A stretch of 64,000 bases of DNA, from positions 30,385,375-30,449,374 of the forward strand of contig CAIIXF020000005.1 of the NCBI GenBank assembly GCA_903813345.2, given 5' to 3'. The position numbers and the translations under genes were made by a program. The notes beneath the pieces are model-generated. The model was not told the origin of the DNA. It did no database searches and worked only from the letters and a program-made list of their open reading frames with translations. Below are positions 10,767 to 48,590 of the stretch, piece by piece (within the stretch, counting starts at the first letter, position 1; every line of letters begins with the position of its first letter). The DNA comes from Owenia fusiformis (taxonomy: Eukaryota > Annelida > Polychaeta > Sabellida > Oweniidae).

Positions 10767-13700
10767 TCAGGAGTCTTTAAAAAGCTGGCGTAAGGTGCTG
10801 GCTTCTGCTGCCATATCCTCTGGTGTTCTCCATTCTGAAGATGAATCTTCAAGTTCTTCACCACTGGAATCTTTGTCGTGTTTTTCCATCTGAAAAGTTT
10901 AATCAATTGTGCGTACACAAAGCAATCAAGCACATGTTACATTGGTCTTCATTTAAGGTTATACACAGAACTGTGACATTATTAACAACCCATGGTGAAT
11001 TGCTAGAGCAGTTATTGAATGCATTTAGTACACGCTATAACATGGAAGAACTGTTGAATGTGACATAAACAACAATTGAGTGAAATAACATTATTTAAAT
11101 CAACAAATGAATGAAAAACAATATACAATATACTTGTAAGATCACTGCATATTATTACATTCTATGGCACAACCATTGAATGTATGTAACACAATTGGAC
11201 AACCATTGAATAAAATACTATGGAACAACCATTGAATGGAAAAGCATGAACTCACCTCACTGTAAATATCATCATTTCTCTTAAAGTCTCCTGGTTTCCT
11301 CGGTAATATGTGAACGTGGACATGCTGAAAATAACAGAGTAAAATATTTTAATGTTCTTGCAATGTTCAACAAGAAACATGACAAAAGATAAAAGTTGTT
11401 ATATTAAAATAATATTTTGTGTTAATTTTGTTTTTTTGTACTAATCTTAATGATTAATCATTATCAAGAAAAGTTTTTGTAAATAATTTATTTAATTTGA
11501 TCTAATGCCTTGAATCCTGTTTCAGATTAACCAATATACGAGGGGAGATTCATAAGTAGTGGGACTTTTCTGAGGCAGCAAGTCCCTGTGTACATATCTC
11601 AACCAAAGTTGGCACATGAATGGACTAGGATATAAGGCATTGTTTGGTGAAATTTCAATTTAATTCATTTTGTTCACTAGCAACAATGGTTGCTATGGTA
11701 ACCAAAAGTAGGGGTTAACAGAGCAGTTAAAAAATGAAGGGCTTGATCAACATAAATATGCTCATAAATATCTCAAAATGACAGTTATTTTCAAATATTT
11801 GGTTTCATATTGTCTCAAGCCTTGTAGTCATGACAACTGTAACATATATTACATCATCAAGCTATTGTGATGTCACACAAAGCAGTGACACCAGGACACT
11901 GCCATTTTCAGTCCTTGTTGGATGGAGCAAAATTTGATTAAAATAGCAATGAAAAAGCAAGAATCAGGTATAAACATCCGTGCTGTGATTAAATTTAATG
12001 CTTTGAAGAAGTTTTCAGTATTTGGGACCTATAGAGGTTTGTTGGAAGTCTTTGGGAAAGAAGAAGCAAAAAAAATCTACAGTATATAGGTGGTATTCTG
12101 TATATGTATTCTGAATATGCTGTGAGAGCCAAGATGACCAATCTTGGAAAATATGGTTTTGAGGGTGCATACCTAGAATGGTTGAGGAGATGCCAAAAAT
12201 GCATTGATTGTCATGGCGAATACTTTGAGAAAGAGTGGGATTGCACCAGAAGGATAAGGAATCAATAGTCTTGCACAGAATTGATGTGCTCCACAAAAGG
12301 ACTCGCTAGAAGTCACGGATTAGATCAAGTCCTGAATATCAGTTGAGACTTGTATATTTAACGAGCAATTAGTGACAAACAATGTGCTCTGTGGACCCTG
12401 TTGTGACGTCATAATTGGAACTCTCACTTTACTGAAGTTGGGTGTAACTTTTTGAAATTTTCACACAATGATTATCACATGTTTGTGGTTCTGTGTTCCA
12501 AGTTTGAATAAAATTTGGTTGATATAAGTGAAGTTATAGCATTTGTCCCACTACTTATGAATCCCCCCTCGTACATGTAGTCCCCAATCAAAATTATGAG
12601 TCATATAATATAGTTTTTAAATCTCCCATATAATTTTTCTTCTCTTTTTAACTCCACGGCTGGGGAAAAAGAACAAGTATACTTGACTAAACCAGCTTTT
12701 AAAGAGATAAAGAACAGCCATCTAATCATAAGATATTTGTAGCTTACCATTACTGTTTGCCCAGCATCAGGACCATCTTGCAGGCCAACAGTCACTGATG
12801 AGCATCCATAGTGACTTTCTACAACAGTTGCCACTCTTTGTGAGACAGTGAACAAGTCTGATACTTCTTCAGGCGTCATCTCAGAAAACCTCTGCACTAC
12901 ACGTATAGGTGACACCAATACATCTGATCTTCGATTTAAGTATTCATTTGATCTTAGAGTTAAGTATTCATTTGATAATTTTACTGTTATTTCAACTGTT
13001 GCCTTACAAACTGCTACCCTTTAACTTTTTCTGAGCATTCAGTATGGTAGTAACAGGTTGAGCCACTTTAAATAAAAATGAATGATGGTATTTTGAGAAG
13101 CCATTTAAAAGAGGTACTCTATCATTCATTTTTAGACTCCAAAGGGAACCTTCTATATTTGTTTTTTTGTATGCTACACCCCCCCCCCCCCTTCAAATAA
13201 TAGTACTAGCATCCCTCTAATACAAGTAGATCTACTTTATTAGCTATCATTTTGAGGATACGACCAGGTACAACACATTTCCTGTTGACAAATGCCATAG
13301 TAAGATGTGTCTTGTAAAATATAATATCTCGCTTTATGGTGTGCTGACCAAATGCATATGTGGCATTATCTACAATGGGTTCTGAAATAAATAATACTGC
13401 AAAATTAGAAAACAATAACAACACATCATACATATGTATGCACACTGTACATGTATTTAATATTTGCTCAAAGAAGAACACACATATAATATATGTGGAA
13501 TATATAAGGAAACTGTACAAGAACTACTGTACTAGAACTTTTGAAAGTCAGTAGGATTTCTTATTACTCACACAGAATATATTACACAATAATTGAAAAG
13601 CATAAAGGGAAACATTAGAAGGCACAGAACAACAGCTATGAACTGTATATGGCATCAAATTCAATATTCTACCTTTTTGTGATGTGACTGTAGGCCTATA

Positions 13701-16343
13701 GATGTCACAACGTCTATGCTGCTGTACAGGCATTTGTGTGCGTACTTTATTGAGGTAGGTGAGGTCTATTTCTGTAACTGCAACATCTTCACCCTCCTTA
13801 CACTGGCACACTACTGCTCCCCAGGGATCAACCACCTTCATATTACAACAATATGGTCTCATGGTAAAATTAAACCTTCAATTGTATAAGGGTTTGTTGA
13901 AAATCACACAGGATACAATTTTGAAATGAAACTCAAGACTCCTAAATTCCCTCATGGGGAGATGCTAAATTGCTAAAAATATGTTTTTGACAATATTGTA
14001 CACTATGATGTTCATGATATAAAGTACATATACAGGGTGAGACATTGTACATACCATTGCATGACCATATGATGAACGTTTTGCATGATGTTTGCCTGTT
14101 TGGGCAGCTGCTACAACATAACATTGGTTCTCAATTGCACGACTACGTAAAAGAACCTGAAATATGACAAACATAAACAATACTTGAACATCAGATTATA
14201 GTACTTAAAATATATAATTATTATTATTATATTATAATATATTTATGTTTTACTTTCTTTAATATAAAACATAATTATTGACAAGTTCAAGAATATGGAA
14301 GCAGGGAGTCATAAACCAGAAATCACTAATCCATGGACACCCCCTCCCACATGAGTGGAGGTGGATGAATTGGCAAGACAGGGGTTTTATGTATTGTATG
14401 TACATACCTCCCAATGTGCCATACCAGTTGGTTGTGTGAAGGCAGAGGGATAGGTGAGTATCTGTGCCCCCTGTTGTCTCAGGGCAACAGACATTTCTGG
14501 AAACCGTAGATCATAGCACTATGCAATTGTTAAAGGAGACATATCTATGTATTTTTTCCAAGATGAACCTGGCTATTTACAAGAAAAAGGGATCAATAAT
14601 CCGGGGTCCATATCTTGAAAACATTCAAAATGACAAAACTGTTTGGAGAAGAATTTTGAGGATCTACCAGTTTCAGAGGACTGATTAAAAGCAACAAAAT
14701 AAAGTTTGACTACTAATGAATATTTCTATATTTATGGATTTTTATTGAAAATAAGAACATGTTTTATTTTTACTTCCCAGTTTTATAAAATCATAATTTT
14801 CATGGAATTTACTTTTTAGCTCAAGTGTTTAGACAATTGACCCCTGGTTATGAATGGTAGATTCACGTGAATTCTAAAAAGGATACTGTTGCAATTCCTA
14901 GGTTTCCCAATGGAGTTTTAACAGGGGGTTCTATTGCACTGCCAGGTATTGTAAAGTCTGTTTCTTTCAACTTCACACCTCCTTTAATGTCCACATCAAA
15001 CAAGTGTGTCTTATGATAGGTGGCGACAATGTCTCCTTTGCTGTTGATTATGATGTGAGTATTGTATATTCTGCTGGCATCATGCTCAGGGCCCTAAAAG
15101 TAAAGAATAAGATAAAAGTAGTTGTGCCTATGTAATAAACATTTACCTAATTTCAATTCATTAGGGATCTTCTCCAGGGAAAAATTATAATTGCCTTCAA
15201 AGAAATGTTATCAATAATCCAAAATTTTGTGAAACTATATCAACCTCAGTCATTATAAATTATCTGAAGGAATATTAGCACTGAATGCATTTAATGAAAA
15301 AAAATCTTTTTTTTCAGAAAATAAAATTAAGGAAATCATTGACATAATTTTTGAAAGCATTACTTCCAACACTTAAAACAACTCTCTATCTCTTCTAAAT
15401 CTTATAAGAACATCAGTCTAAGGAATGTAGTTATTGAGGAGAGACACAACATTGGATCAGCATACACAAAAAAAGATGAATGACTCACCTTTTCATGAAA
15501 GCCTCCCAGAGAGAGCCAAACATTCAAGGACTTTGCAATATTCTTATACTGTGTTATAACAGGGCCATCCAAGTTCTCTGCCATGGAGATTGACTGCTCT
15601 CTACTTTCACCTACATAATCAAAGCACTCTGGTAGAAAAACCATCTGAAACATATTCAGAATTACAAGTAAGCATCATGTTTACCCTTATTGATTATTGA
15701 ACCATTTTTGGATATATCTGCCGTCAATGTCCATTAAATCTTCAAGTTAATTTAATCTCTTTACTTCATCGGAGCAGCTTTTATTTGCAAAATATGTGCT
15801 AGGTACAGTGCATGAAGTTTTCATTATTAAAGATAAAAGTTCACAATTATAAACTATAATGTTTTGGCAATCAATAAATTCCTGGAAAGATTATATCCTT
15901 TCATCAAGATCAACATTTAAAACTTCAATTGAATGGATTATTTTTAATTCCATCATTTTGCTAAATTTTGCCAAACTTCATGATTACTTATAGACAAGGT
16001 AAATGTCACCACCTAGTTGCTCACAATATTATGAGTTCAATCTTAAGTCAGATTTGAACTTCTGAGAACTTGTGGTGGTAAATATATTGTGTAACAATGA
16101 TTTTACCTTAGCACCTCTAACTTTAGCTTTCTCAATCAACGATTTCCCTGTCTTTATATTTTCGTCTTTGTTAGGTTTGCAATTCATCTGGCAAACAGCA
16201 ACAATTCCAGGACCAGTAATTTCAGTATTTGATGGCAAGCCATTGGTGGTGCTCATCTTGCAAATTCGAAGACTTTGAACCTTATATGCATGTACAAGCT
16301 TTCTCACTGTTGCTTTTGATAGACATGAAATCTTGTCAAGCAT
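10767..16343 (-). CDS. NitFhit: Nitrilase-FHIT fusion protein (NitFhit), complete, ten coding exons
   Basis: An amino-terminal nitrilase (Nit1-type amidase, in other animals acting on deaminated glutathione) is fused to a carboxyl-terminal FHIT domain (diadenosine triphosphate hydrolase). Coding exons: 16343-16107, 15644-15489, 15093-14887, 14518-14408, 14156-14055, 13835-13673, 13381-13262, 12923-12748, 11324-11256 and 10889-10767. They total 1464 bases, 487 residues plus stop, and all phases agree. The nitrilase triad is visible: Glu85 in FLPECFD, Lys159 in YHKTHLFD, Cys201 in CYDLRFPEM. The FHIT part holds AFGQHTIK, the substrate-binding DGPDAGQTV, the histidine triad [10 protein letters not shown] (nucleophile His427) and the conserved IYSE tyrosine. 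The first ~30 residues are rich in Lys and Arg and could be a mitochondrial presequence, with Met30 an alternative start. The acceptor of exon 13835 (AATATGAAG) is weak but gives the family sequence YGHAMVVDPWG. Length compares well with the ~440-460 residues of fly and worm NitFhit. Confidence 0.95.
11539..12571 (+). mobile_element. Degenerate mariner element, CGAGGGG ends, in a NitFhit intron
   Basis: Inverted ends CGAGGGGAGATTCATAAGTA and its complement, ending CCCCCCTCG, are flanked by TA (11537-11538, 12572-12573). The interior plus strand encodes a broken transposase start near 11920: MEQN, then [16 protein letters not shown], which resembles the amino-terminal helix of mariner transposases (IRAVIKF type). 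Frames are interrupted, so it is inactive. It fills most of the intron between the two FHIT exons 12748 and 11324. Confidence 0.75.
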
Positions 16344-27386: not shown

Positions 27387-28269
27387 TACCGAGGAATATG
27401 GTAGTCCCAGACAGTTGAATCTGGGATAGGCTCCGGGAGGATTTTGGACTTAAAAATGGTCCTCAATATGGGCCCAATTTTCCAAAATAGGCCAACGTTG
27501 ACAGAAAAATACTAAATACTTAATTTTAAAAAATAAGTTTCATTTTGCTTGCTCAATCCCCCCGGCCACCCTCTTCCGCTTCTACCACACTGGCTGCACT
27601 AATATAGTATCTCCATATCACATTTGATGTTTCAGATCTTGATGACTCGCTAGCTAGATGGGAGATCAAATTATTTCAACGAGAACAAGAAACACTATCC
27701 CTGTACTACTACTGAAGTATTGTATTTCTTTGAACAATAAAATAACCTCAACATTAGTATGGAATTTATTTCATATATCGTTACTTCAGAAATCATTGGA
27801 AACTTAGACGCTCTCTATCATCCTTCAATATCCCAAAACTAAAACTATTTTTCAACCATTTAAAGGGGCCGTTCCTTTATCTCTGATCTTAAATTACTCC
27901 AATCATTTGTTTAAAACTTTTTATTCCTCCTTATTTAGATCATAACGATTTATATGTATTTGTACTATCAAAAGATACACTTTAATACAATTCTTTTCAG
28001 AAAGGAATGTCAAATTTACCTTTTCTGGGAGCTATTTAGAGGTAAAGTACCTTTAACTTATCTAACCCTGCAGTTTTGCCATATGATGGGTTTTCATAGG
28101 TCAAATGGCAAAATGGCAAAAGAAAAATGATGTTGCACTAGCCTGCAACATTTTTTTTATATTCGATAGCGATTTTACAGATGATAAATGTAATGACTTT
28201 TGTGATTTGTCTGTCAAAAACGTGTCGATCTTTTTTACCAAATCATATTTTGTTTATTTTCGGTAATTT

Positions 28270-31200
28270 CTATTTTCTACCCAATAATGGAGAGTCCTCC
28301 TCAGAACTACTTTGCCCTGACTCCCGGCGCCAAATTGAGTTATTGTCATCTAAATAGCGTCGCCAAATTGAACTTTCTTGTCCGATTCCCTTTTTCCAGA
28401 TACTACTTGGTCCATCAATATAGCGTCTCCATATGGAGTTAAAGTCTTCGTTTGGATATCTTCTCCAGATGGACGCCACATTGTCTAAATCACGTCGCCA
28501 AATACCATACTGATTGTCCAACTGACGCCTCCATATTGAATTCTGTCCACCATTTTCAAGATACCTTCTCCAAATGCTCTGGGGTCCGACATGAGAACGT
28601 TTCCATATACTGCTCTGCCCAAATGGTTCCCTTCTCCAGATGGAATTCTGACCGCCGCCTAGATGACGTCGCCATATGGCGTTCATACCATCCATATCGC
28701 CTCCTAAGTAACGTCGCCATATTGCCATCATACCGGGATCATCCATCCCTCGTCTCCAGATTGAGCTCAACGTTTCATGATCCAAAAGGCGTTTCCAAAT
28801 AGATTCCATTTCAGACAACTGACGTTCGCTTTTCTCCTGCGAACTCGAGTCTAATTCTCGTTTCCCAAGACCGATATGTCTGTAGCCTAAACTTACGGGT
28901 CGTTTAGCAACTTTAGATATGCCTGTCTCGCGTTTTGCACGTACAGAGGCATCAGCAGATTCCACATCCTTGTCTTCAACTATGTTTTCTGAAATTAAAT
29001 TGTTTAATTTAGAGGGCGGGGACAAACTACGTATACGGTGTATTTCAAAGCTTCAATTGGATACCGCATGCCTGTTCATTTGAGTAATATACCTTTTCAT
29101 CCCCAAAGCATGTGGATAAAAGCTTGAATAGTACCTGCCACTAAACCATTCATATTTAAATGAGTTGATCATAAAAGAGTAGGTTAATCCGGAAGCACAG
29201 TCGAAAATCGCATTCGCGAATACAAGCTGAGCTCCTCTTCTGCGTTTGGAGAATGAAATGGTTCAAGAAGTTCAAAGGTTCCTCCCACCATGGGCAGGTT
29301 CACTAATACTATACGTTTGGGGGTCGCATCTTTAATTGAATATCGTAGAAATGTTCATTTAAACAAAATACGTTTTGTCAATTATTTCCATAACTCTGAT
29401 TGATGTATTGGTCAAGTTCCGTCGCGAAGAAAAATGAAGTAACGGTGTTGATCGACAAAATATTTTAATTTCCGAGTGAGTTAAGTCGAACAATCAATCT
29501 CAGTCATCAACTAAAACTAATAGCCGACATTAGAAAACAGATTTTAGATTTCATCCAAATATCAAGATTTAAATAAGATTTACTACGCTTGGTGATGGGT
29601 AAATTCCGAGAGAAGACAAAGGATATGGTTAGGCCTAATCCATTGTTTGGATCATCGTGAACTCACTTTATGTTCTCACATAGCGCCTGATGCTCATAAA
29701 ACTAAGCGCTTGTGAACATTAGATGATGATAGATACATTATTTTCCACTATCAACACCATGATTGACAATAAAACTGTTTATAAAGACAACCTAGTTGAT
29801 CATGTTTTATCGCAATTCGTTTTGATTTGTAGGGATTCCAATAAATAACAAATGTTCTGTACTTTTATGACAACTGTCGCTACACCTTCCCCTTTTAGAC
29901 AAAGTATGTCCTCGTAGTAAAATAAAGGTGTAAATATTTCCAAGCAAACAATTAATTCGTGTAAATCCTCACGGACTAAGCTATAATCCCCTCCCACATT
30001 TCCACGAGTGCGTAAGAAACAAAGAATGTGCTTGTTGAGGATGAGTTACAACAATCTCTGGATGCAATGATTGATTATTAAAGCGTAATTGATTTTAAAA
30101 TCTCTTCTGCTGCACGTTTTACACGTAACGATCATTCCATACTTGTATCGGATTTAGACCATCAAAATCGGACTGAACAACTTTACACAATCTCTGATAA
30201 ATAATGAATTAAGAAACCATTTAATAAGGTGATTCCTAGTCGACGTTGTTCTTCTTTATCACATTATTCTCGTTAAAGCCCCTGCCGTCTCTAATTAAGC
30301 ACTACATTAATCATAGTATCTTAACATTACAATCGGGAAAATATAACTATTAAAACAATTAAACTGACATATTTTCAAATCAAGTTTGGCCCTTGGGTAT
30401 TTCGTATGGTAGCTGCAACATACAAAGGAATCGTTTTAACTTCATTGTCATTTCTTTCTTGGAGGCTTTTTATGCTAATCTTCGTTGACGTTGCTTGAAT
30501 TAGAAATTTACTTGATACCATCAAAGGCATAAAAGCTCAGGATAAGATGATCCATAATGAAACGCAAGTGAAAAGCTAGACATACGAACTGCCCACATGA
30601 CAAATATATCCTTAAATCTGCATTCTTAAAGCTGCGACATTTAACATTTAGCAACTTGGGAAAGGGAAGTCTCTGGTTTATCTAGTCAGACTCTAGCAAA
30701 TTGATCTATTTTTAAGATGATTACTTAAGCCCTCTTTTATATTGTGCTCACCCGACAAGAATATCATATAGATTTGATTCCTATCGTTTGTTATGCCCAC
30801 TAATCTTTTTGTACCTAATACCTAGTACCTTTTCGAAAAGAAAACTACAGGTATTGTTCGTACAAACTTCAGCGAGATCGCGGGAAGGGAGCGAGATTTT
30901 TACATCTTAGGAGTGGCCATGATCATAATATGTTAATTATTGAATTGGTTAACATGACTGACCATTGGGATTTCTATTTCTTTTCCTAAAACATCAAATT
31001 TATTGTGTCTGGGTCTTCTTTCATGTCAATTTGCATAATACCAAAAATTGTGAGTCAAGAGGGAGCATATTTTACTTGGTTTACTTTTTATTTATCCCAA
31101 ATGTGATTTCCCACTTTAACCATTTCCTTCAATTCCTCATCAGCTTTTGTCTAAATATGATTCCTATTTTGTCATCAACCCTTCCTTAATCTTTGCATTT

Positions 31201-34200
31201 GGTGTACGACCCCCAAAATTTCCCCTTCTGTATTGCCCCTTTTGTATTGCCCACACTGGATCACAGGAAGTTGCTGTCTTATATTCTACACCCACTCCCA
31301 TCCATATTTTACTAGATGAACAGAACAGACATTTCATCAATGTAGCTATGAGACAGATCCGGATGATTAAATTTAAGTACATCACAAAGATAAGGTTGTC
31401 AACGTAGAAATCAGCTATCAAAGCCCATACCAAAGGCTATTCAAAACATAAGTAGCATACGAGTAGAACTCTCGATAATAGGGTGAAGGAACATATAGAG
31501 ATGGAAACCCGGCTAAAATTGCTAGGAAATCCCTTCCTAAATGATAGTAAACAACATACGATACAATATACCATAGATCATGATATAATCCTGTTATAGA
31601 TTCGGACAAAATAATACAAAAGTGTTGTATCGAGAAAGCAATATAAGACAGCTATTAATTAGAGAATCAATAAACATTGGAGAAAGAGAGATGGCATCTT
31701 TAACACAGACAAAGGGATAGATTTGATTCGATCGTCCCCTTTTAGTTAAATTAGTACAAGTGAAATATTTCAATTACAACTACTTTAAGGATATTGTTCT
31801 TCGAAATCCTTGAAATATTTCAATTACAACTTCTGAGTAAAGGATACTGTTCTTCGAAATCCTTTGACATGTATTTGTGAATCCCATCACATCGTCGATG
31901 TTCTGTTTAATACTTAGCAGCATTAAGAGCTCTTGGGATTTGTAAGATATGTCATAACAGATCTTGGTGTCGGATGGTAAGATTGATGTCACAAAGGGAT
32001 TTGTCGGACGATTTCGTAATTTCATATTCTCGAAATGTGTAGATTTCTTATCTTCGACTTTCCAAATAAACAAATAGAATTTTGAAATTGTAACCTTGAC
32101 AGTACCCTTTGCATTCGTTCGACTTCACTTCTTAAAAGAGAGCTCCGTCTTCACTCTTTCAAACTAAAATAAACCTGTGAACTCACCGCGCCAATCAGTG
32201 CTCGTCGGCCAAATTTGACCGACGTTCTATATATGGTCATTCCTTCTGACGTCATCGTTAAGCCCGGAATTGACCAATGACAATTCAGAATTTATTTTGG
32301 CGCGTGTTTCTTCAAGCTCGCTGATTGGTGGAAGAAAGGTCAGCGCGTAGGTCAGAAGTGATTTATTACCCGAACTGTCATCGGCACCCGTCGTGGGGGC
32401 GGGGCTACTAAACTGTAATATGGTTTCTACTAGGCAGAGTGTAGTTTAACTAGACTCTGCATGCAGGGTACCTTGACAGGTACGTAAAGATGCGGATTTC
32501 TTGACTGGTGGCAAGCCGCGTATTTCTCTTTCTATCGATCTCAGAGACAATTCTAGAAGTCTGTTCAGATATAACGCCGGGAGTCGATTTATTAAACTCA
32601 TCACACTTCCCCCATCGTATAAAAATGTTTGCATCGTTCATCGTTGTATGTAGCCAATATTTGAGTTTGGGTCTAATCTTGATCTAGAGACGTGCAGAGA
32701 GATATAAGAGATAAGTCCTAATTGTATGTTTCAGTACATTTGCAATCTACCCAAGGATTGGATGGATTGTATCATGGAACAATAATGAATGTAGCTTTAC
32801 ATTTTATTCAAATCAGATCACCGTTAAGTTAATATGATTAGAGGATTGCGATTTATTGGCCATATTTCTGAGATATCAGGGCGGATTACTTTCTATTCTA
32901 TTCAAGTAATTCATTGGTTTATGAATTGTTCCGAAGAACATAAGACTCTAACCTATCGGAGTTTAATTACAACCTCAGTATCCAGTAGATACACATACCG
33001 ATAAAGAAAATGCAAAATTGATGAAACTCAACTTACAAATATGAGAATACTTGTTGTGTCTGATAATAGCTAGTAATACATAAATAGAATTCGTATCAAA
33101 TCTCTGATTGTGGTCATAGTCATGGGATGAGAAAGACGCGTGGTTAGTTTAAAGCACATTTAAAAGACGATCTTTTTTCTCCATAGTGCCGAGTGCCTGG
33201 AGAATACCAGTATTTTACGAGAATACATCAAATTAACGAAAAATCCAATTAGTATATCTAAGTATAGAATAGAAGTAATACTACCTATATTTTCGACTTA
33301 CAAGTCATCTCCTAAGTCTTGATTTATACCTATGCCTACTTCTCCCTCCTTTCCTCTTGGAGGCTTGATGAAAAACTATTGTCACATTTGAACAAAAACT
33401 TGCAAAAAGATGAATTAGAACATTGGAAATGTCACTTGCCAATCCTACATCAATCAATCCGGCTAATGAAATAAAGTTGATGTAATGATATCACAGGAAG
33501 AAACACGGTCGTCTTAATTTAGACTATCCTAGCAAAATAATTTTAACTTTAGTTTGACTTTTTAACAATTCCTTCACAAGACTATGGCTTCCTTTCCGCT
33601 ATTTAAATTGAAGATTCTTCAATGCAGAGTCCCTTCGCAGGCAAGTAATGTACAATCAGATACAGGGTGACCCAAAAAATGCAACCCTCCATTTCTTCAA
33701 TATTTTTCTTAAATGGAGGTAAATTGCTCTGAGATTTGGCACACAAGAACTTCATTCAATGTGAGATCCTCTGGCAAAGTTTTAATAACGATCTAGTCTT
33801 ATATTGATCGAGTTATGGTTGTTTCAAAATATGCTCCATATATCGTCAATTTCGCTGAAAACAAACTTGCAATGTTCAAGGAAAACTGTTCATAACACAG
33901 ATGCATTCTTCCCCATGGGTATGGCTCAAATTTTTGCAGGAATGCTTGTTGGAGTTCTGCAATTGCAGTAGGGTTATTTTCATACACATTATCCTTTAAA
34001 TAACCCCATATATAGAAGTCAGGGGCATTGAGATCAAGACTGTGGGATGACCATGGGTTCTCCATCCTAGGAGAGATAATCTCATCATAGAAATGACTAG
34101 TGAGCCAGGCTATGCTATCATAAGAAGTGTGAGGAGTAGCCCCATCCTTCTAGAATCACTGTTCTTGTCTATTGAAGCCTGTATGTCATTCTAGAACTGC

Positions 34201-36485
34201 CTAGAACTTCCTGGGAATGCCAATATTGCACTGTGTGTATATGGCGTCCATTTCGACCTGCAACCGGCACCGGTACTTGTGCACCATGGTGCACCATGGT
34301 GCACCGGAAGTGACGTCAAAGGTCACGTGCACCGGAAGTAACGTCATAGGTCACGTGCACCGGAAGTGACGTCATAGGTCACATGGTTACTGATATAACT
34401 GGTCAAAGGTTACTGATAATTGATAAGAGAGAGATAATAAACTGATAAGACAGTGGTAAAGATAACTACCATGGTTTCTGATATAACTGAACAAGTCACA
34501 TGGTTACTGATATAACTGGTCAAAGGTTACTGATAAGAGAGAGATAATAAACTGATAACACACTGAAAAAGATGGTCAAAGGTTACTGATAATTGATAAG
34601 AGAGAGATAATAAACTGATAAGACAGTGAAAAAGATAACTACCATGGTTTCTGATATAACTGGACAAAGGTTACTGATAATTGATAAAAGAAATAGGTTT
34701 GAGTTGAATGCACAGAAATGATGTCATATGTCACATGGTTACTGATATAACTGGTCAAAGGTTACTGATAACTGATAAGAGAGAGATAATAAACTGATAA
34801 GACAGTGAGAAAGATGACCAAAGGTTACTAATAATTGATAAGAGAGAGATAATAAACTGATAAGACAGTGAAAAGATAACTACCATGGTTTCTGATATAA
34901 CTGGACAAAGGTTATATTGATAAAAGAACATAGGTTTGAGTTGAATGCACAGGAATGATATCATACGTCACATGGTTACTGATATAACTGGTCAAAGGTT
35001 ACTGATAACTGATAAGAGAGAGCTCAATTGATAAGATAATCAAACAAACACTGTTAAGGTAACCTGGTGACTATGTGATAAGCTATCTTGTCTACTTCAT
35101 GGATGTTTCATTGTTATAGGCCAAAGGTGGATAATAAACTGATAAAACAGTAAAAAAGATAACTGCAGAACCATTTCAACCAAACAGGTTTTAACTTACA
35201 GAATTATGTTAACCAATCAGAGTACAGAATGTTTTAACCAATCAGGTTTCGAGATGCAGAATTATAACAACCAATCAGGGATAGTATGTTTGTATTATCT
35301 GATCCAATCGATGTACAGTATATTTTCATCCATTATTTTAACCAATCGGGTTGCAGTATATTTTCATCTAATCAGAAAGCAGCAAATTCAACCAATCAGA
35401 GATAAGTTCCACCAGTAAACCAGTTTAAACATTCTGGTATTATGCAACACAAATATTTACTGAGAGATTGACATTGCTAAGGTCCGGTCAAAGGTTACTG
35501 ATAATTGATTAAGAGAGAAGTCTACTGATAAGATAACCAAACCAACACTGTTAAGATAACTTGGTGTCTAAGTTATTCAAGCTCTTAAGTAATATGTAGA
35601 ACAAACCTTTGACATATGATATCACTGGTTAATGATAACTAATAAGAGAAAAGTAGAGAGTGTAAGTGTACATCATTAATATTATTGAGAACAACAACAT
35701 AATAAATAGATTAAAATAAACATTAAGAAGGTTGATCTGGGGATCAAACCCAGGACCTTTTGCTCCTAAAACAAGCATCATACCACTAGAACAATCAACC
35801 ATAGATATGGAGAGAATATTTGAATATACTTCATGGCAATCATAAAAGGTATAGCATGTTTTGAATCAGATATTATGTTATGGTCAGGAAAACAATAACT
35901 GCAGAACTATTTTAAACAATCGGGGTACAGTATGTTTTCATCCAGTCAGATATAAGAAAATCACCCAGTAGGAGAATTTTTGCAACATTACAAGTTCCGA
36001 CTGGTATTGAAGTTTTATAACCAACAAGCCTCCTGAGTCATTTTAGAATAATTTTTAAAGTGTCACGCTTGAACGATTTCAGTCACTGTTGGTCGATTTC
36101 TACTAATTTTTGGAGTTTGAATCTTTTGTTGTTCGATGTATGTAAATAATTCCTCTCAGTTGAATTTGCAAACAGAACCTAGGTCATTGCTACATGCTGC
36201 TACAAAGGTAGATTAACCAGTTATTTTGGACAGCGACCAAGTGTGAAGCGAAAACTGGCAGCTAACTGGAAGCCCAGCGGGTACTATTTATGTTTACATG
36301 AGTTTTCCCTCCAATTGTAATCAACCCCTCAAATGTCTAAAAACCATGTAAGTGTACTTTTTTAGAATCTTTTTTGGAATATTTTCGACCAATCAAAGTG
36401 TATATGCAAATGAGCTGCAGAACCATTTCAATCAATCAGATCAGATTATTGCACTCTTTGACCCCGCCGCCACCGCCGCCGCCAC

Positions 36486-36516
<31 letters not shown>

Positions 36517-36705
36517 ACCACCGCCGCCGCCGCCACCGCCGCCGCCACCGCCGCCGCCACCACCGCCGCCATCGCCGCCGCCGCCGCCGCCACCGCCGCC
36601 ACCCGTTGTGCCTTTAATGGCACGTGATATTCATATTTAAATAAGTTTTCTATCAAATTGCAATCAAACCCGGTAAAAAGTAAAGATGGCGGTGGCGGCG
36701 GTGGC

Positions 36706-36748
<43 letters not shown>

Positions 36749-39700
36749 GTGGTGGCGGCGGCGGCGGCGGCGGTGGTGGTGGCGGTGGCGGCGGCGGCGG
36801 CGGTGGCGGCGGCGGCGGCGGCGGGGTCAAAGAGTGCAATAATCTGATCTGATTGATTGAAATGGTTCTGCAGCTCATTTGCATATACACTTTGATTGGT
36901 CGAAAATATTCCAAAAAAGATTCTAAAAAAGTACACTTACATGGTTTTTAGACATTTGAGGGGTTGATTACAATTGGAGGGAAAACTCATGTAAACATAA
37001 ATAGTACCCGCTGGGCTTCCAGTTAGCTGCCAGTTTTCGCTTCACACTTGGTCGCTGTCCAAAATAACTGGTTAATCTACCTTTGTAGCAGCATGTAGCA
37101 ATGACCTAGGTTCTGTTTGCAAATTCAACTGAGAGGAATTATTTACATACATCGAACAACAAAAGATTCAAACTCCAAAAATTAGTAGAAATCGACCAAC
37201 AGTGACTGAAATCGTTCAAGCGTGACACTTTAAAAATTATTCTAAAATGACTCAGGAGGCTTGTTGGTTATAAAACTTCAATACCAGTCGGAACTTGTAA
37301 TGTTGCAAAAATTCTCCTACTGGGTGATTTTCTTATATCTGACTGGATGAAAACATACTGTACCCCGATTGTTTAAAATAGTTCTGCAGTTATTGTTTTC
37401 CTGACCATAACATAATATCTGATTCAAAACATGCTATACCTTTTATGATTGCCATGAAGTATATTCAAATATTCTCTCCATATCTATGGTTGATTGTTCT
37501 AGTGGTATGATGCTTGTTTTAGGAGCAAAAGGTCCTGGGTTTGATCCCCAGATCAACCTTCTTAATGTTTATTTTAATCTATTTATTATGTTGTTGTTCT
37601 CAATAATATTAATGATGTACACTTACACTCTCTACTTTTCTCTTATCAGTTATCATTAACCAGTGATATCATATGTCAAAGGTTTGTTCTACATATTACT
37701 TAAGAGCTTGAATAACTTAGACACCAAGTTATCTTAACAGTGTTGGTTTGGTTATCTTATCAGTAGACTTCTCTCTTAATCAATTATCAGTAACCTTTGA
37801 CCGGACCTTAGCAATGTCAATCTCTCAGTAAATATTTGTGTTGCATAATACCAGAATGTTTAAACTGGTTTACTGGTGGAACTTATCTCTGATTGGTTGA
37901 ATTTGCTGCTTTCTGATTAGATGAAAATATACTGCAACCCGATTGGTTAAAATAATGGATGAAAATATATTGTACATCGATTGGATCAGATAATACAAAC
38001 ATACTATCCCTGATTGGTTGTTATAATTCTGCATCTCGAAACCTGATTGGTTAAAACATTCTGTACTCTGATTGGTTAACATAATTCTGTAAGTTAAAAC
38101 CTGTTTGGTTGAAATGGTTCTGCAGTTATCTTTTTTACTGTTTTATCAGTTTATTATCCACCTTTGGCCTATAACAATGAAACATCCATGAAGTAGAAAA
38201 GATAGCTTATCACATAGTCACCAGGTTACCTTAACAGTGTTTGTTTGATTATCTTATCAATTGAGCTCTCTCTTATCAGTTATCAGTAACCTTTGACCAG
38301 TTATATCAGTAACCATGTGACGTATGATATCATTCCTGTGCATTCAACTCAAACCTATGTTCTTTTATCAATATAACCTTTGTCCAGTTATATCAGAAAC
38401 CATGGTAGTTATCTTTTCACTGTCTTATTAGTTTATTATCTCTCTCTTATCAATTATCAGTAACCTTTGGTCATCTTTCTCACTGTCTTATCAGTTTATT
38501 ATCTCTCTCTTATCAGTTATCAGTAACCTTTGACCAGTTATATCAGTAACCATGTGACATATGACATCATTTCTGTGCATTCAACTCAAACCTATTTCTT
38601 TTATCAATTATCAGTAACCTTTGTCCAGTTATATCAGAAACCATGGTAGTTATCTTTTTCACTGTCTTATCAGTTTATTATCTCTCTCTTATCAATTATC
38701 AGTAACCTTTGACCATCTTTTTCAGTGTGTTATCAGTTTATTATCTCTCTCTTATCAGTAACCTTTGACCAGTTATATCAGTAACCATGTGACTTGTTCA
38801 GTTATATCAGAAACCATGGTAGTTATCTTTACCACTGTCTTATCAGTTTATTATCTCTCTCTTATCAATTATCAGTAACCTTTGACCAGTTATATCAGTA
38901 ACCATGTGACCTATGACGTCACTTCCGGTGCACGTGACCTATGACGTTACTTCCGGTGCACGTGACCTTTGACGTCACTTCCGGTGCACCATGGTGCACA
39001 AGTACCGGTGCCGGTTGCAGGTCGAAATGGACGCCATATTAACAGTAACAGTGTTGCCATTATCAACCTCAAACCAAAAGGGGCTGATGATTTCATGTTT
39101 GGAAATTGGCAGCCCAAGCTGTGCATTTAACAGGATGAAGGGGCCTTTGAAGCACTTCATCTTGAATTTGTGATCCCAGAACACATTATTTCTTGAGTTT
39201 ACATGTTCAGAAAGAAGGGAATGTGATTCTTCCGAAAACCTAACATTGGAAATGGACGACATTTGGAGCATATTTTGGAACGACCATAACTCTATCAATA
39301 TAAGACTCTGATTATTGAAACTTTGCCAGAGGATCCCACATTGAATGAAGTCCGTGTGTGCCAAATTTCAGAGCAAGAAAAATATTGAAGAAATGGAGGG
39401 TTGCATTTTTTTGGGTCACCCTGTACTTACAAAACTTTACTTTTGCCAAACCCAAATTTGCCTTACAATATTTTCATTTTCATTTTAAAAGAGAGCTTCA
39501 TCAATTAAAGTTTTGGACTCTGACACACAGTGTAGTTTCACATTTATAAAAATCTCAATTCCGATTTTAGGCCGATTCCCCACAAACTATCATCCTCTTT
39601 CCAAAGATAGTCAGAGGGCGTGTTAAGCCAATGGGGATCAAGGGTAACTCCTTCAGGTTGTCAACATGCATTGTAAACAATTTAGACTATATGTGTTTTG

Positions 39701-42700
39701 GCATGCTCTATGTACCATGCGTCCTTTTGGTAGTTCACAGAGAGAGGGCCTTCTTGATGATTTTTCAAAACGTCGATACTACAGTATTCTCCCCCAGCCA
39801 AAAATTCTTTCAAAATCAGTTTTTCAGCATTCTGAGCACTTTTTTCTAGTGATTTTGGCCATTTTTTGGACCAAAATTGTCAAAAGTGAACCCTTTTAAG
39901 AAGTGACCCCCCCATGGAAAAAGCTGGCTACGGACCTGGGGATATGCCCGTTTACAGAGGCAATTCTTGAAACCAACATTACCACAAATTGACTGTACAA
40001 CAAACTACTTACAAGAAATTGGATTACTAAATTGAATTATGGGTTTTTGAGAATTCGTCCTATCTTCAGGGGTTAACGCAATTACTTTTCAGATCAGTCA
40101 AATACTGTTGTTTGCCACTGTCCCATATCATTTCCATCAAATAATTTACGACATTATCATGGTTGTCGTTCAGTGTTGTTCTTGTTCTAATTATTTAGGA
40201 CGACCTATTTTCCAAAGGATAGTTCGTTTGCTAAGCGTACGGGGGGTCCTTGCCGATTCTGTTTGATTTACAATTTTCACTATTGTTGAACTTGAGCTGA
40301 ATGCGCATTACTTGATTAAGAGATTAACAACGTCTTTTATTACTGTAATCTTTTTTCATAGCAGGTAATGCACATATAATGTCATTAACACTAAAAGTAC
40401 AAATAAACGCACTAACTCTGAATTACGACTGGTGTTCTGAAGGAATGTTTGTCTTGAATAATTATCTTATATCGCGACCGTTGCGTCTTTCTTTTGTAAG
40501 AAAAGATCAAATTGCGGATGAACCTTATACGCAATAGATAAAGACAGTAGAACAATTTGCAATTACATCGCGAACATTAAAACACAGGTCTGAAGTCAGA
40601 ATCTCCATTGTGTTAAGAAAAGAGCTCATTCATATTTAAAATTTTAATTTGACCCAGAAAATGAGTGGAAATAAATGCAAGACAATACATATACAGGGTG
40701 TTAAAAAACAAAAGTACTCCCTCTACAGCAAAATGCATACTGTGTCATAACAACTTGATTCTGTGGTTACCTGAGAAAATTCAGCTTTGTATCGTTTAAA
40801 TTTACCGTCAGTTGGTGCTCAAACAACAGCTAATCTGGATGGATATATGATTTCAATAAAGATTCAAATAAAGCTTTAATAGAATTACGTACTTTCCTTA
40901 CATTCTGCATAAATACATCCTTAATTGTATTTGTTTTCAAGAGGCCCCGCGTCCAACGATTCCCCTACCATGTCTTTCACAATATTGAACCCATGCGCTG
41001 ATGCGTTCAGCTCAGTTGAGGTATGGGCTATTTCCTACATATTTCCAAGATTTGAGCTTTTACAAGTAACAAAGCAGCAAACAAAGAACTGAAGCAGCCA
41101 AAATTACTGTATGTAGCTTTTTGATTTAAAGTTTTATTAAATAAATATTAACTCCGGAATTAAATTATCCTTCAAATGAGATTTAACACGCCATGTATCA
41201 TCAAGGAGTTTCTGCGGTAGAGAAAGGGATGTCTTTGGTTTTTGACACCCTGTAGAAGCAGTTATTACCGTCACGACGAAACAATGTAATTGATAATAAC
41301 ATAAATTATTCGTCATTTCTTCTAATTATACCAGTTCATGTTTCATAGACCATGTCAGCATATTAAATGATTTATTTTAAGTGCTAAATGGCATTGCAGA
41401 GGTGGCACATTATAAAAACATACTGGTAACCTCCGCCCGGAATATAATTACATTTACACTCAGCATGTAATAGTATGGTCTGTAAGAAAAACTATGCAAA
41501 CAGGTGTCATTATAAGACTACAACGCCCTAAATAATCATGAAAAAGATCGTTATCCAGCAATTTATAATTTTAAATTGCCACTGCTCAGCTGGACTCTAT
41601 AAGAAGAAATATATAAAATACGTGTTATTATACTCCTTTCATAAACAGAACGATTAATTTCAAGGATACGTGGTAAGCGGAAAGAAAATTATAGAAAATT
41701 TATTTTCATCCAACCTTTTTCGTGTCCCAATCAGACGAACCGTTTGTCATTTCTTTTTTGCTTTCTCCCCAGAGGTGCGCAATCTATTCTAAATCGATTA
41801 TTGTCACGTTAAGAATTCCCTTTTAAGAATCTAATAACAAATGGTTGCATTGTGCATATTTGTAAATCACTCTACTTTTTATAACAAGGCTATTTAACAA
41901 TGGTACGGTGAAGAAACACAGGGTTACGATTTGTATACCACGAGGCCCGATTACTAATAACGCAAGTGCGAGTAGGTAGTTACCAGTTTCACCACCAGGT
42001 GGCTCGCTCGGGTCAGATAGCATGGCGGGTATAGTAGAAAGTTCCCTTTAACTTAAATTACATCTGTTTTAGTGGTTCAATTTTCATATAGCCCTAATGA
42101 ATCGAATAGTTATTAGAGGTTATGTCACTATGACGTGAAATATGCCTGAGTTCTCCCAATATAGGCCGACCTTGGGAGGCTCTATATTTGGGCAAGAACG
42201 AAGGCATATTTCACGTCATAGTGACATAACTGATGTATTACATGCCTTTGTTCCCATGGTTACTTTGTATCAATGACGTGACGTCATGATATTATCATGG
42301 TTATTAAAGAAATCTAATATCAAAACGAGGTAAGCGGGCTATATCGGGGTAATCGGGCAATATCGGTGGATATAGCTCGCTAACTTTCCCATTGACTTCC
42401 ATACAAATGCTTCGCTAGGTATGTAATACTGCAAATTAAAGTATGTCCAGTAAAAGAAAATGTTATATGTCCAATACAAGAAAAGATATTTCACTTTTTG
42501 TGATTTTTTAACATGGGGTCTATGGGGAATCAACCCGAACTAGAAGTCACATTTTCAAAAAAGATTAAATTTTCAAAGTTGATAAACAATTTTCGAAACC
42601 CTATTTTTGGATGTATTTTTACATGTAGATTTCAAATATGACATCACTTTGACTGAATTTTGAATATTCAATGACGTAAATCAAGATCATTTCTACTCGC

Positions 42701-43781
42701 ATCTAGTCTATTACTAGGGTATAATCCCTAAGCTGTTCATCTATTAGTTCTAACAATAATGACAAAATTCCTCTGTACAAGCCTTTAAAATAAACTAGCT
42801 AGTTTCATAACTTTTGAATACGAGTTTCTGTATACTGTATCCTTCGTCAGTGACGTGTTTTAAAACAACAAAAAAGCTATGGAGCTAGCGCTAGTTTTGG
42901 CAACATCAGAATTAATCTATTTCAGCACCTCAAATTCTATAAAGATCACTCTGTTGCCAAGCTGTAATAAAATTTCCCACGAGACCATTTAACAACCCCA
43001 CTATTATTTTCAAGGAAGTGCAGAGGAATCTTCAGTTATTACTGCGATATGAGTTGACGCTCTCTTTTGAAAGAACGAAATGTATAGCATTCGTACGTCA
43101 CACTAGAGCGAAAACAGACCTGTGCTCTTGACCATCCGAAATATATGATTAAAACGATTTTTGACATCATTATACACGATTCGAAAAGTGTTGGTGACTT
43201 TTCATGTTCGAATCGTAATATAGACCTAAAAGCAGGTGTTATATGGATGAATACATACCTCAAAGTTAGGCGCAAACGCTTTCGAATTCCTTACTCATTT
43301 CGGTCATTCAGGGTACAGAAAACGTTTGTGCCTAGCCCTGCGATGTGTATTCGTCGGTATAACACTTGCTCTTCAGGCTATATTTCTTAAATATATGAAC
43401 ATAAAACAAACACATGATAATTTTCGAGGTTTTTTTAAATATACAATTTTGGAAAAAGTTGTTCGCTATTTATGATGCTTCCTTTCATGAACATGGAGTC
43501 GAGGACAAACATTTTTCAACCTTGAGCGCAATGTAACGTAACCAATTTGCGAAAAAGTTAAAAGAATAGATTCGAGCAGTTCTAAAAACAGTTTTGATTT
43601 GCAGCGCTAGTTAAGATATTCAAAAAGTAATGAGTAAATATGAGAGAATTGACCATAAACAAATTATCAATATTTGTATTTAAAATTACGTTTTCATACC
43701 TTCGTGAACGGATAACGGGATCCCAACAGCAAACGCCAATCCAGAAAGATAAAGAACGAACGCTCCTCGAAAACCTTTCAT
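28270..43781 (-). CDS. Neuropeptide precursor with 14 peptides ending in -IW, two exons
   Basis: Secretory prohormone. Coding exon 1 (43781-43700) is 27 codons forming a signal peptide (MKGFRGAFVLYLSGLAFAVG) and ends in phase 1 at GAAG/GTATGA. Exon 2 (28988-28270) starts after ATTTAATTTCAG with AA, completing a Glu codon, and runs 238 residues to the stop. The joined precursor is 266 residues. After a short acidic spacer come dibasic sites releasing ETGISKVA, the amidatable PVSLGYRHIGL-Gly, and then 14 peptides mostly of 9-13 residues (the first lies at the end of a longer segment), each ending in Ile-Trp directly before KR, RR or KK, such as DLDNVASIW, YIDGPSSIW and HLGGGQNSIW. No Gly precedes the cleavage sites, so these would be free acids. 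The tail ends LLGRK. Exon 2 is certain as a prohormone; pairing with the distant exon 1 (intron 14.7 kb) rests on phase, strand, signal-peptide logic and the promoter. No known neuropeptide family is recognised. Confidence 0.8.
28989..32101. other. Intron sequence of the neuropeptide gene, no gene seen
   Basis: AT-rich, without recognisable exons or paired transposon ends on either strand. Confidence 0.35.
32102..32470. mobile_element. hAT-like MITE, GTACCCTTTG family, long copy with promoter-like interior
   Basis: This 369-bp element is flanked by the 8-bp direct repeat CCTTGACA (32094-32101, 32471-32478). It shares both ends with 3401-3485 and 59638-59734. The extra ~280-bp core holds CCAATCAG, TGACGTCA, TTTTGGCGCG, GATTGGTGG and GGGGGCGGGGC. 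These resemble CCAAT, CRE, E2F, inverted CCAAT and Sp1 sites, as in a CpG-rich promoter. Confidence 0.75.
33799..34065 (-). pseudogene. Mariner/Tc1-like transposase carboxyl fragment
   Basis: The minus strand reads a WSSHSLDLNAPDFYIWGYLK-like stretch followed by DNVYENNPTAIAELQQAF. This matches the catalytic end of mariner-like DDE transposases (SPDLxPxDFFLWGYLK). It has no amino half and ends at a stop soon after, so it is a dead remnant inside its own inverted ends. Confidence 0.7.
35730..35800 (-). tRNA. tRNA-Pro-like sequence, left arm (probably pseudogene or SINE-like)
   Basis: This 71-nt sequence has a perfect 7-bp acceptor stem (GGTTGAT/ATCAACC) and a perfect T-arm (CTGGG TTTGATC CCCAG). 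Its internal promoter boxes, TTCTAGTGGTATGA and GGTTTGATCCC, resemble those of tRNA-Pro. The anticodon stem is imperfect (four of five pairs) and by position the anticodon is UAG, not a proline one, so function is doubtful. No 3' intron or long variable arm. Confidence 0.5.
36461..36603. repeat. Impure (GCC)n trinucleotide tract, left
   Basis: GCC/ACC trinucleotides run about 140 bp and form the inner end of the left palindrome arm. Apparent poly-Pro and poly-Ala frames here are artefacts of the repeat. Confidence 0.9.
36604..36686. other. Spacer (loop) of the giant palindrome
   Basis: About 84 bp of unique sequence between the two trinucleotide tracts, AT-rich, containing GGCACGTG. It would form the loop if the palindrome extruded as a hairpin. 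Confidence 0.7.
36687..36826. repeat. Impure (GGC)n trinucleotide tract, right
   Basis: Inverted partner of 36461-36603 at the inner end of the right arm. The interruption pattern is similar but not identical, so the tracts have changed independently. Confidence 0.9.
37488..37558 (+). tRNA. tRNA-Pro-like sequence, right arm (probably pseudogene or SINE-like)
   Basis: Inverted copy of 35730-35800, identical as far as read, at the exact mirror position. The same structure and doubts apply. Confidence 0.5.
39745..39939. repeat. Dispersed repeat ending GGCTACGGACCTGG
   Basis: Reads as a diverged inverted relative of 52031-52198. Shared words include AAAAATTCTTTCAAAATCA, CTGAGCACTTTT and GGCCATTTTTTGGACC. 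The right edge is defined by GGCTACGGACCTGG; the left edge is approximate. Confidence 0.5.
40694..41252. mobile_element. TA-flanked mariner-like MITE, CAGGGTGTTAAAAAAC ends
   Basis: Left end CAGGGTGTTAAAAAACAAA and right end TTTTTGACACCCTG are inverted, with TA on both sides (40692-40693, 41253-41254). It is 559 bp long, with no coding region recognised. Confidence 0.7.
41964..42704. mobile_element. MITE-like repeat, AGATGCGAGTAG ends, copy 2 with insertion
   Basis: Second copy of 4290-4705, interrupted by about 340 bp (roughly 42100-42440) that include the hairpin at 42119-42231. Outside the insertion the two copies align along their whole length. Confidence 0.7.
42119..42231. repeat. Perfect-armed hairpin
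   Basis: Arms of about 29 bp, GTTATGTCACTATGACGTGA... and its complement ...TCACGTCATAGTGACATAAC, separated by about 55 bp. It may be the end of the element that split repeat copy 2. Confidence 0.7.
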
Positions 43782-43815: not shown

Positions 43816-43880
43816 TCTGACTGATAGTGTTGGTATTAAATTTCTTACTTTTATAAAAGTGGACCAGCTTCTGCGCATGC
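43816..43880 (-). promoter_or_regulatory. Core promoter of the neuropeptide gene
   Basis: On the minus strand a TATA box TATAAAAG (43855-43848) lies about 33 bases before TCAGTCA, an initiator of the TCAGTY type with its A at 43822. Upstream is GCATGCGCAG (43880-43871), like an NRF-1 half site. The signal-peptide ATG follows 41 bases after the predicted start, at 43781. Spacing is ideal for a TATA/Inr promoter. Confidence 0.6.
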
Positions 43881-44557: not shown

Positions 44558-45201
44558 CAGGGTGTCCCGAAAGTATGCCCCCTCCCCTAGGTAGACATAT
44601 TCCAGTGTCGTCAAAGTATGTGTCATATACCATTTTAAAGCTTATCCAAAGTTACATTGATTCGCCAAGTATCATGGTTCTACTCTCAAATGTGAAAAAA
44701 TTACAGGCATTTCAAAATTTAGTGTTTGGTCAAAATTAAGTTAAATTTTACACTAAATCACAAGTCAATGTGTCCTCCCGGGCCATCTTAACAGCAGCAA
44801 TTCTTTTCCGGGTCGGATGGATATTGAGTTGAAAAAGAGAACGATGGGGGTAGAAACTCTAGGGAAACTCTTCTAAAGTGCCTTAACAGGTTTTAGGAGG
44901 GTTATAAAATTCCACACCCCTATTTGAAGGGCTTTTAAGGTCATATCTGAAAATAATTGCTGCTGTTAACATTGCCAAGGGGGGACTCATTGACTAGTAA
45001 TGTGGTGTAAAATTGAACTTTATTTTGACAAAACAATAACCTTTAAAATGACTGTAACTTTTTCCCATTTGGGAGTTAAACCATGATACTTGGCAAATCA
45101 ATGTAACTTTGGATAAGCTTTAAAATGATATATGACACATACTATGAGGACACTGGAATATGTCTACCTAGGGGGAGGGGGCATACTTTCGGGACACCCT
45201 G
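44558..45201. mobile_element. TA-flanked mariner-like MITE, CAGGGTGTCCCGAAAGTATG ends
   Basis: Ends CAGGGTGTCCCGAAAGTATG and its complement are flanked by TA (44556-44557, 45202-45203). The inverted arms run about 190 bp or more, and weaker pairing continues (CAGCAGCAATTCTTT with ATAATTGCTGCTG), so most of the 644 bp is palindromic. Confidence 0.8.
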
Positions 45202-46989: not shown

Positions 46990-48590
46990 TAACTGTGCAA
47001 CATTGCAACTCTTGCACAAGTAAATGCCCAACATTGCAACTCTTGCACAGGTAAATGCCCAACATTGCAACTCTTGCACAAGTAAATGCCCAACATTGCA
47101 ACTCTTGCACAAGTAAATGCACAACCTTGCAACTCTTGCACAAGTAAATGCCCAACATTGCAACTCTTGCACAAGTAAATTCTCAACATTGCAACAAATA
47201 ATGTCCAACAATCATAACTGTGCAACATTGCAACTATTGCACAAGTAAATGCGCAACATCGCAACTCTTGCACAAGTAAATGCCCAACATTGTAACTCTT
47301 GCACAAGTAAATGCGCAACATCGCAACTCTTGCACAAGTAAATGCCCAACATTGCAACTCTTGCACAAGTAAATGCCCAATATTGCAACTCTTGCACAAG
47401 TAAATGTGCAACATAGAAACTCTTACACAAGTAAATGCCCAACATTGCAACTCTTGCACAAGTAAATGCCCAACATTGCAACTATTGAACAAGTAAATAT
47501 TCGATATTTCAACTCTTGCACAAGTTAATACCCAATATTGCAACTCTTGCACAAGTAAATGCCCAACATTGCAACTCTTGCACAAGTAAATGCCCAACAT
47601 TGCAACTTTTGCACAAGTAAATTCTCAACATTGCAACAAATAATGTCCAACAATCATAACTGTGCAACATTGCAACTATTGCACAAGTAAATGCGCAACA
47701 TCGCAACTCTTGCACAAGTAAATGCCCAACATTGCAACTCTTGCACAAGTAAATGCCCAATATTGCAACTCTTGCACAAGTAAATGTGCAACATAGAAAC
47801 TCTTACACAAGTAAATGCCCAACATTGCAACTCTTGCACAAGTAAATGCCCAACATTGCAACTATTGAACAAGTAAATATTCGATATTTCAACTCTTGCA
47901 CAAGTTAATACCCAATATTGCAACTCTTGCACAAGTAAATGCCCAACATTGCAACTCTTGCACAAGTAAATGCCCAACATTGCAACTTTTGCACAAGTAA
48001 ATTCTCAACATTGCAACAAATAATGTCCAACAATCATAACTGTGCAACATTGCAACTATTGCACAAGTAAATGCGCAACATCGCAACTCTTGCACAAGTA
48101 AATGCCCAACATTGCAACTCTTGCACAAATAAATGCGCAACATCGCAACTCTTGCACAAGTAAATGCCCAACATTGCAACTCTTGCACAAGTAAATGCCC
48201 AATATTGCAACTCTTGCACAAGTAAATGTGCAACATAGAAACTCTTGCAGAAGTAAATGCCCAACATTGCAACTCTTGCACAAGTAAATGCCCAACATTG
48301 CAACTATTGAACAAGTAAATATTCGATATTTCAACTCTTGCACAAGTTAATACCCAATATTGCAACTCTTGCACAAGTAAATGCCCAACATTGCAACTCT
48401 TGCACAAGTAAATGCACAACATTGCAAATCTTGCACAAGTAAATTTCCAACATTGCAGCTCTTGCACAGGTAAATGCCCAACATTGCAACTCTTGCACAA
48501 GTAATTGTCTAACCTTGCAACTGTTGCACAAGTAAATGCCCAACATTTCAACTTTTGCAAGTGTAAACATCCAACTCATGCACAAATTAA
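46990..48590. repeat. 31-bp minisatellite with higher-order structure
   Basis: About fifty tandem 31-bp units (consensus CTCTTGCACAAGTAAATGCC plus CAACATTGCAA). A variant block with TCCAACAATCATAACTGTGC recurs at 46979, 47204, 47646 and 48026. The last two intervals are 442 and 380 bp, differing by exactly two units, so larger blocks were also duplicated. 31 is not a multiple of three and the minus strand is mostly stop-free in all frames, giving long Cys-rich open frames with a 31-residue period. These are most likely non-coding. Confidence 0.9.

Follow-up and report, generated by a model that had tools for sequence, protein, structure and literature searches.

A candidate neuropeptide precursor with 14 tandem, non-amidated Ile-Trp peptides in the annelid Owenia fusiformis

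Introduction

An open frame on the minus strand of a 64,000-nucleotide stretch of the Owenia fusiformis genome (here, the window) encodes a run of short segments, each closing with Ile-Trp just ahead of paired basic residues. This layout raises the question of whether the locus is a gene for secreted signalling peptides and, if so, whether those peptides (IW peptides) belong to a family that has already been described. A first-pass annotation, made from the sequence without database searches, took it for an unrecognised neuropeptide family. On the sequence evidence we regard the locus as a real gene for a multi-copy secreted peptide precursor. This is very probably a neuropeptide precursor, and the IW peptides are probably an undescribed family, although of a well-known neuropeptide kind.

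A tandem array of peptides ending in Ile-Trp

Re-counting on the minus-strand translation of 28270-28988 confirmed the proposed number of tandem segments: a C-terminal IW stands before a dibasic pair in 14 of 14. The pair is RR in 11 segments, KR in two and KK in one. Ser precedes IW in 11 of the 14, so that most copies do end in -SIW as first annotated, with Ala in two and Gly in one. Gly is found ahead of the basic pair in none of the 14 segments, and the earlier prediction of a free C-terminal Trp holds for all of them. The segments are 9-13 residues long, with net charges of 0 to -2; this range counts the first copy from a single Arg (SER|QLSEMESIW), and cutting at dibasic sites alone would make that first piece 21 residues. 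Computed [M+H]+ values are 1032.50 for DLDNVASIW and 1037.49 for YIDGPSSIW.

Chance and protein-level constraint

The mature protein, shuffled 20,000 times, never gave more than two IW-dibasic motifs, against the 14 observed. Beneath the constant residues the DNA varies. All three Ile codons are used in the motif (ATT five times, ATA five, ATC four), its Arg is encoded by all six Arg codons, and Tandem Repeats Finder detected no DNA-level tandem repeat in 28200-29100. Comparing all 91 pairs of copies over the five-codon core gives 214 codon differences that are synonymous and 81 that are not. The synonymous fraction is thus 0.73 of 295, against a mean of 0.20 and a maximum of 0.25 in 300 simulated runs with random changes of equal size; because the copies are related and the pairs non-independent, the simulation is a guide rather than an exact test. 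Taken together, the use of all Ile and Arg codons, the synonymous bias and the lack of a DNA repeat argue that the motif is held at the protein level. The copies look old and diverged, with their ends under selection, rather than like a young DNA repeat.

Alternatively, the array could be a chance open frame or a minisatellite, as the genome does contain repeats that read IDIWRTSLNVN. These repeats belong to one C10 minisatellite, within which all five of the precursor's other genome matches fall (E 1.8e-5 to 9.2e-4). It has a 33-nt unit, 85-88% matched, its arrays in L003 and L004 cover all five matches, and several frames are open in L003. We rejected the five matches as paralogues because they lie in this minisatellite. 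Counter to the repeat explanation, exon 2 has no DNA repeat and a strong synonymous bias, whereas the C10 array is built of its 33-nt unit and, in L003, is open in several frames. This explanation is already largely refuted, and we give it almost no credence. No paralogue was found in the genome (498 Mb, 525 contigs) in one six-frame search that scored only its best candidates.

Predicted gene structure

A good acceptor lies directly before 28988, where the frame begins, so that 28270-28988, the span of the original annotation, is predicted to be a complete terminal coding exon, with its stop codon at the far end (Table 1). The 35 kb upstream were searched for exon 1, requiring an ATG, a signal-peptide-like beginning and a phase-matched donor, with a home-made score, not SignalP, and one assumed acceptor. 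The best candidate starts at 43781, with a summed score of 5.11. Its donor, GAAG|GTATGA, is in phase 1 and phase-matched to exon 2, and the predicted two-exon gene, spliced at 43700|28988, joins into a 266-residue precursor with no internal stop.

Two other phase-1 candidates are nearly tied with it, at 61101 (5.10) and 39096 (4.99), both with weak donors, and a further one at 44990 (4.83) pairs a strong donor with a signal-like start that is weaker. Among five candidates checked, 43781 and 61101 carry TATAAA in the 150 nt ahead of their ATG. The latter has its TATAAA 47 nt upstream and lies antisense within a UDP-glucuronosyltransferase frame. As a chance control, 150 length-matched first-order Markov sequences contained hits that equalled or exceeded 43781 in both measures at a rate of 0.087 per 35 kb, and hits that also had TATAAA within 150 nt at 0.007 per 35 kb, with thresholds that were 43781's own scores, set post hoc. 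We regard the predicted signal peptide, which was absent from the first reading, as a good candidate. It supports, as a prediction, the view of the product as a secreted, multi-copy precursor cleaved at dibasic sites. Its distance of 14.7 kb from exon 2, the home-made score and the near-tied candidates count against the gene model.

Neuropeptide precursors are recognised by a signal peptide, one or more basic cleavage sites, the lack of other Pfam domains, and repeats (main text of PMC3890597). These general features are found here, with the signal peptide judged by our home-made score on a predicted exon. Against Pfam the full precursor scored once, with an EF-hand that stays below the cut-off (E 0.023; 14.9 bits versus 27), and searches of NCBIfam, a bacterial and archaeal library, and of the PDB found nothing.

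Table 1. Coordinates of the predicted gene, its candidate products and a homeobox group elsewhere in the genome. Positions are those of the window unless a contig is named.
Feature	Position	Strand	Remarks
TATA box (TATAAAAG)	43848..43855	-	31 nt before an initiator-like TCAGTC starting at 43824
Predicted exon 1	43700..43781	-	Start codon context AGAAATG; encodes signal-peptide-like MKGFRGAFVLYLSGLAFA followed by VGIPLSVHE
Predicted intron, 14,711 nt	28989..43699	-	Acceptor tttaatttcag; palindrome and transposon-like fragments inside
Predicted exon 2, remaining precursor	28270..28988	-	From translation; stop codon 28270-28272
Candidate amidated PVSLGYRHIGL-amide (PVSLGYRHIGLG-KR)	28858..28899	-	From translation; Gly before the pair; predicted processing
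14 IW peptides, with KR, RR or KK after each	28324..28821	-	From translation
C-terminal acidic peptide ESGQSSSEEDSPLLG-RK-stop	28273..28323	-	From translation; candidate LL-amide (...SPLL-amide); predicted processing
AATAAA polyadenylation-type signal	28253..28258	-	11 nt past the stop codon
Clustered homeobox matches (L014-L021, L023, L024, L026)	contig C1, 17.97-18.47 Mb	one strand	From homeobox search

Other peptides of the precursor

Two candidate amidated peptides flank the array, PVSLGYRHIGLG-KR before it and ESGQSSSEEDSPLLG-RK-stop after it; for the first, PVSLGYRHIGL-amide, the expected mass is 1210.71. The claim that amidation is absent is therefore right for the IW peptides, 14 of 14, but not for the precursor as a whole, in which both flanking peptides carry Gly. 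If both are processed accordingly, amidation would be available in the cells that make the IW peptides. The lack of Gly in all 14 copies would then point to selection for a free Trp, and not to a missing enzyme.

Comparison with known families

In annelids and molluscs, non-amidated multi-copy peptides such as the pedal peptides are no rarity, which tempers the suggestion that the lack of amidation is unusual in itself. Pedal peptide and orcokinin precursors have many copies and dibasic sites, are mostly non-amidated, and share a conserved N-terminal motif around Asp. The IW precursor is likewise multi-copy and dibasic, and in 5 of the 14 copies Leu/Ile-Asp at positions 2-3 recalls, by eye, that Asp-bearing N-terminal part. 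IW peptides are fixed at the C-terminus, where all have Trp, and vary at the N-terminus.

What defines the Wamide superfamily (MIP / allatostatin-B / GLWamide) is a C-terminal Trp-amide, and MIPs have as a further hallmark an N-terminal Trp (main text of PMC7270403 and PMC6425005), usually 5-8 residues before the C-terminal one (main text of PMC7737342). Like these families, the IW peptides come from a repetitive precursor with several cleavage sites and have a conserved C-terminal Trp. Unlike them, 14 of 14 copies are without the amidation Gly, and a second, N-terminal Trp likewise occurs in 0 of 14. Annelid WI peptides, known from Platynereis and Capitella precursors, are non-amidated, follow the pattern x-W-x6-7-W-[G/I/L] and are regarded as a divergence from MIP (main text of PMC3890597). 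The IW peptides share with them an annelid origin, the lack of amidation and a Trp near the C-terminus. WI peptides, however, have two Trp and end in W-[G/I/L], whereas each of the 14 IW copies has one Trp, as its last residue, and ends in I-W. Given that WI, and possibly also NGEW, is a published non-amidated family of this kind (PMC3890597, main text), the earlier suggestion that free-acid Trp peptides lack precedent went too far.

Could the locus nonetheless be a derived MIP or WI-type precursor, one stripped of its amidation Gly and its N-terminal Trp, with just the aliphatic-Trp end kept? One copy, YLDDNNSIW, can be aligned by eye with an annelid MIP form. The MIPs of Urechis and Platynereis end in MRVW-amide (main text of PMC7737342), so that in these two annelids too an aliphatic residue precedes the C-terminal Trp, and with WI annelids already have a non-amidated MIP offshoot. 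A genome query with a composite MIP motif, which may be insensitive, gave five weak matches, the best with E 5.3e-4. By eye, we saw no canonical MIP exon at these loci: frames at four of the five (L009-L012) are repeats, and L013 overlaps L012. Finding repeats in place of a separate MIP gene would suit this origin, as far as the query was sensitive enough to reveal one. Against it, the family-defining second Trp or Gly is seen in 0 of 14 copies. We consider descent from MIP or WI unlikely.

A further alternative is that the IW peptides are a divergent member of a described annelid family, above all Platynereis NGEW, or HIGA, the latter suggested by YRHIGLG-KR in the precursor. NGEW and HIGA are Platynereis precursors with two or more similar copies; NGEW has mass-spectrometry support and is missing from the list of amidated peptides (main text of PMC3890597), and HIGA is also listed in nemerteans (main text of PMC8557429). 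Compared by description, NGEW resembles the IW precursor in being annelid, multi-copy and not on the amidated list, with a name that suggests a C-terminal Trp. Compared by name, it differs, as the name points to an NGEW end rather than SIW, with Glu before Trp where the IW peptides have Ile. As to HIGA, the precursor holds a single HIGL copy. Neither PMC3890597 nor PMC8557429, papers whose peptide sequences sit in supplements, has the string 'SIW' anywhere in its main text. Kinship with either family appears to us rather unlikely.

In the open-access literature, SIWRR, SIWKR, IWRRYL and similar strings turn up in a few papers, none of them about neuropeptides to judge by title; one of the searches, by whole words, would overlook motifs embedded in longer peptides. 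'SIW' is also absent from the main text of PMC5996578, PMC7737342 and PMC6425005, where, as in the two papers above, peptide lists usually belong to the supplements, and further literature searches gave leads but no IW family. Within the main text of the papers covered, the statement that no described family has the IW-dibasic signature stands. The proposal of an unrecognised family is supported in part: the IW copies depart from the definitions of Wamide/MIP and WI, and for NGEW and HIGA the comparison is by name and description.

Proposed function

We think it highly likely that the locus is a two-exon gene for a 266-residue secreted neuropeptide precursor that yields 14 free-acid IW peptides. 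After removal of the signal peptide, prohormone convertases would cut at 18 dibasic pairs and possibly also at one single Arg before the first IW copy, and a carboxypeptidase would trim the exposed K/R. This would release 14 peptides, acidic or neutral and 9-13 residues long, ending in -[S/A/G]IW with a free carboxylate, as well as two further peptides with amidation signals. As only the C-terminal end is conserved and the bodies vary, a receptor would be expected to read the constant Ile-Trp end. Most likely, the IW peptides are redundant with one another as ligands and signal through a G-protein-coupled receptor or a peptide-gated channel.

The architecture by itself is no proof of expression in neurons, and the same repetitive secreted precursor could have a non-neural role, as a source of glandular, epidermal or antimicrobial peptides. 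Counter to this, the peptides are short, acidic or neutral and free of Cys, and they share one C-terminal dipeptide; together with the two amidation signals, this would fit signalling better, and we hold a non-neural role to be distinctly improbable. For a neuropeptide precursor, the fuller reading is of a new annelid family, the IW peptides, whose free-acid Ile-Trp end is fixed by selection in 14 copies while two co-encoded peptides keep amidation signals. The receptor would then have to read the carboxylate of a free Trp and not an amide. We give this reading an even chance. If real, the annelid peptidome would gain an orphan family, with 14 natural variants for finding a receptor of free Trp carboxylate, in contrast to Wamide receptors. 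It would also allow a test of whether amidation was lost once more among MIP-like peptides in annelids, beside WI.

Other features of the window and genome

Inside the predicted intron, 34289-38999 is a near-perfect palindrome with arms of 2313 nt, 99% complementary, around an 85-nt spacer; each arm contains one tRNA-Lys(TTT)-like copy. A minus-strand frame at 33799-34149 resembles a mariner-type transposase fragment by eye, and gave no significant match in Pfam. At 32227-32254, also on the minus strand, a CRE-like TGACGTCA and a TATA-like CATATATAG are followed by GTGAGT at 32186-32181, possibly a second promoter within the intron. As an alternative promoter for the precursor it was rejected, since the stretch from there to exon 2 gave, whatever the phase, no candidate signal-peptide exon above the scan thresholds.

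Elsewhere in the window, 46998-48559 is a minisatellite of 31-nt period with about 50 copies and long open frames. On the plus strand, 59861-61462 is a UDP-glucuronosyltransferase gene in a single open frame with a signal-peptide-like start. On the minus strand at 12601-13877, a HIT-domain frame adjoins frames that by eye are FHIT N-terminal-like and nitrilase C-terminal-like, and this region is perhaps a NitFhit fusion gene.

Across the genome, Pfam Eryth_link_C (the annelid erythrocruorin linker) has three matches over the family cut-off, spread over less than 15 kb of C6. Two of them are in open frames and the third is interrupted by a stop, and they fit an annelid genome. A PDB search with one of these exons found no relative. 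COX1 did not turn up in the assembly, nor did a molluscan haemocyanin domain, in a search whose control likewise matched nowhere. Homeobox matches number 45, and the 11 of them that group on one strand of a single contig (Table 1) include the eight best. This group is apparently a Hox cluster. One member (L017) has the motif KLTGP past its homeodomain, which we take to be the Lox5 signature of lophotrochozoans.
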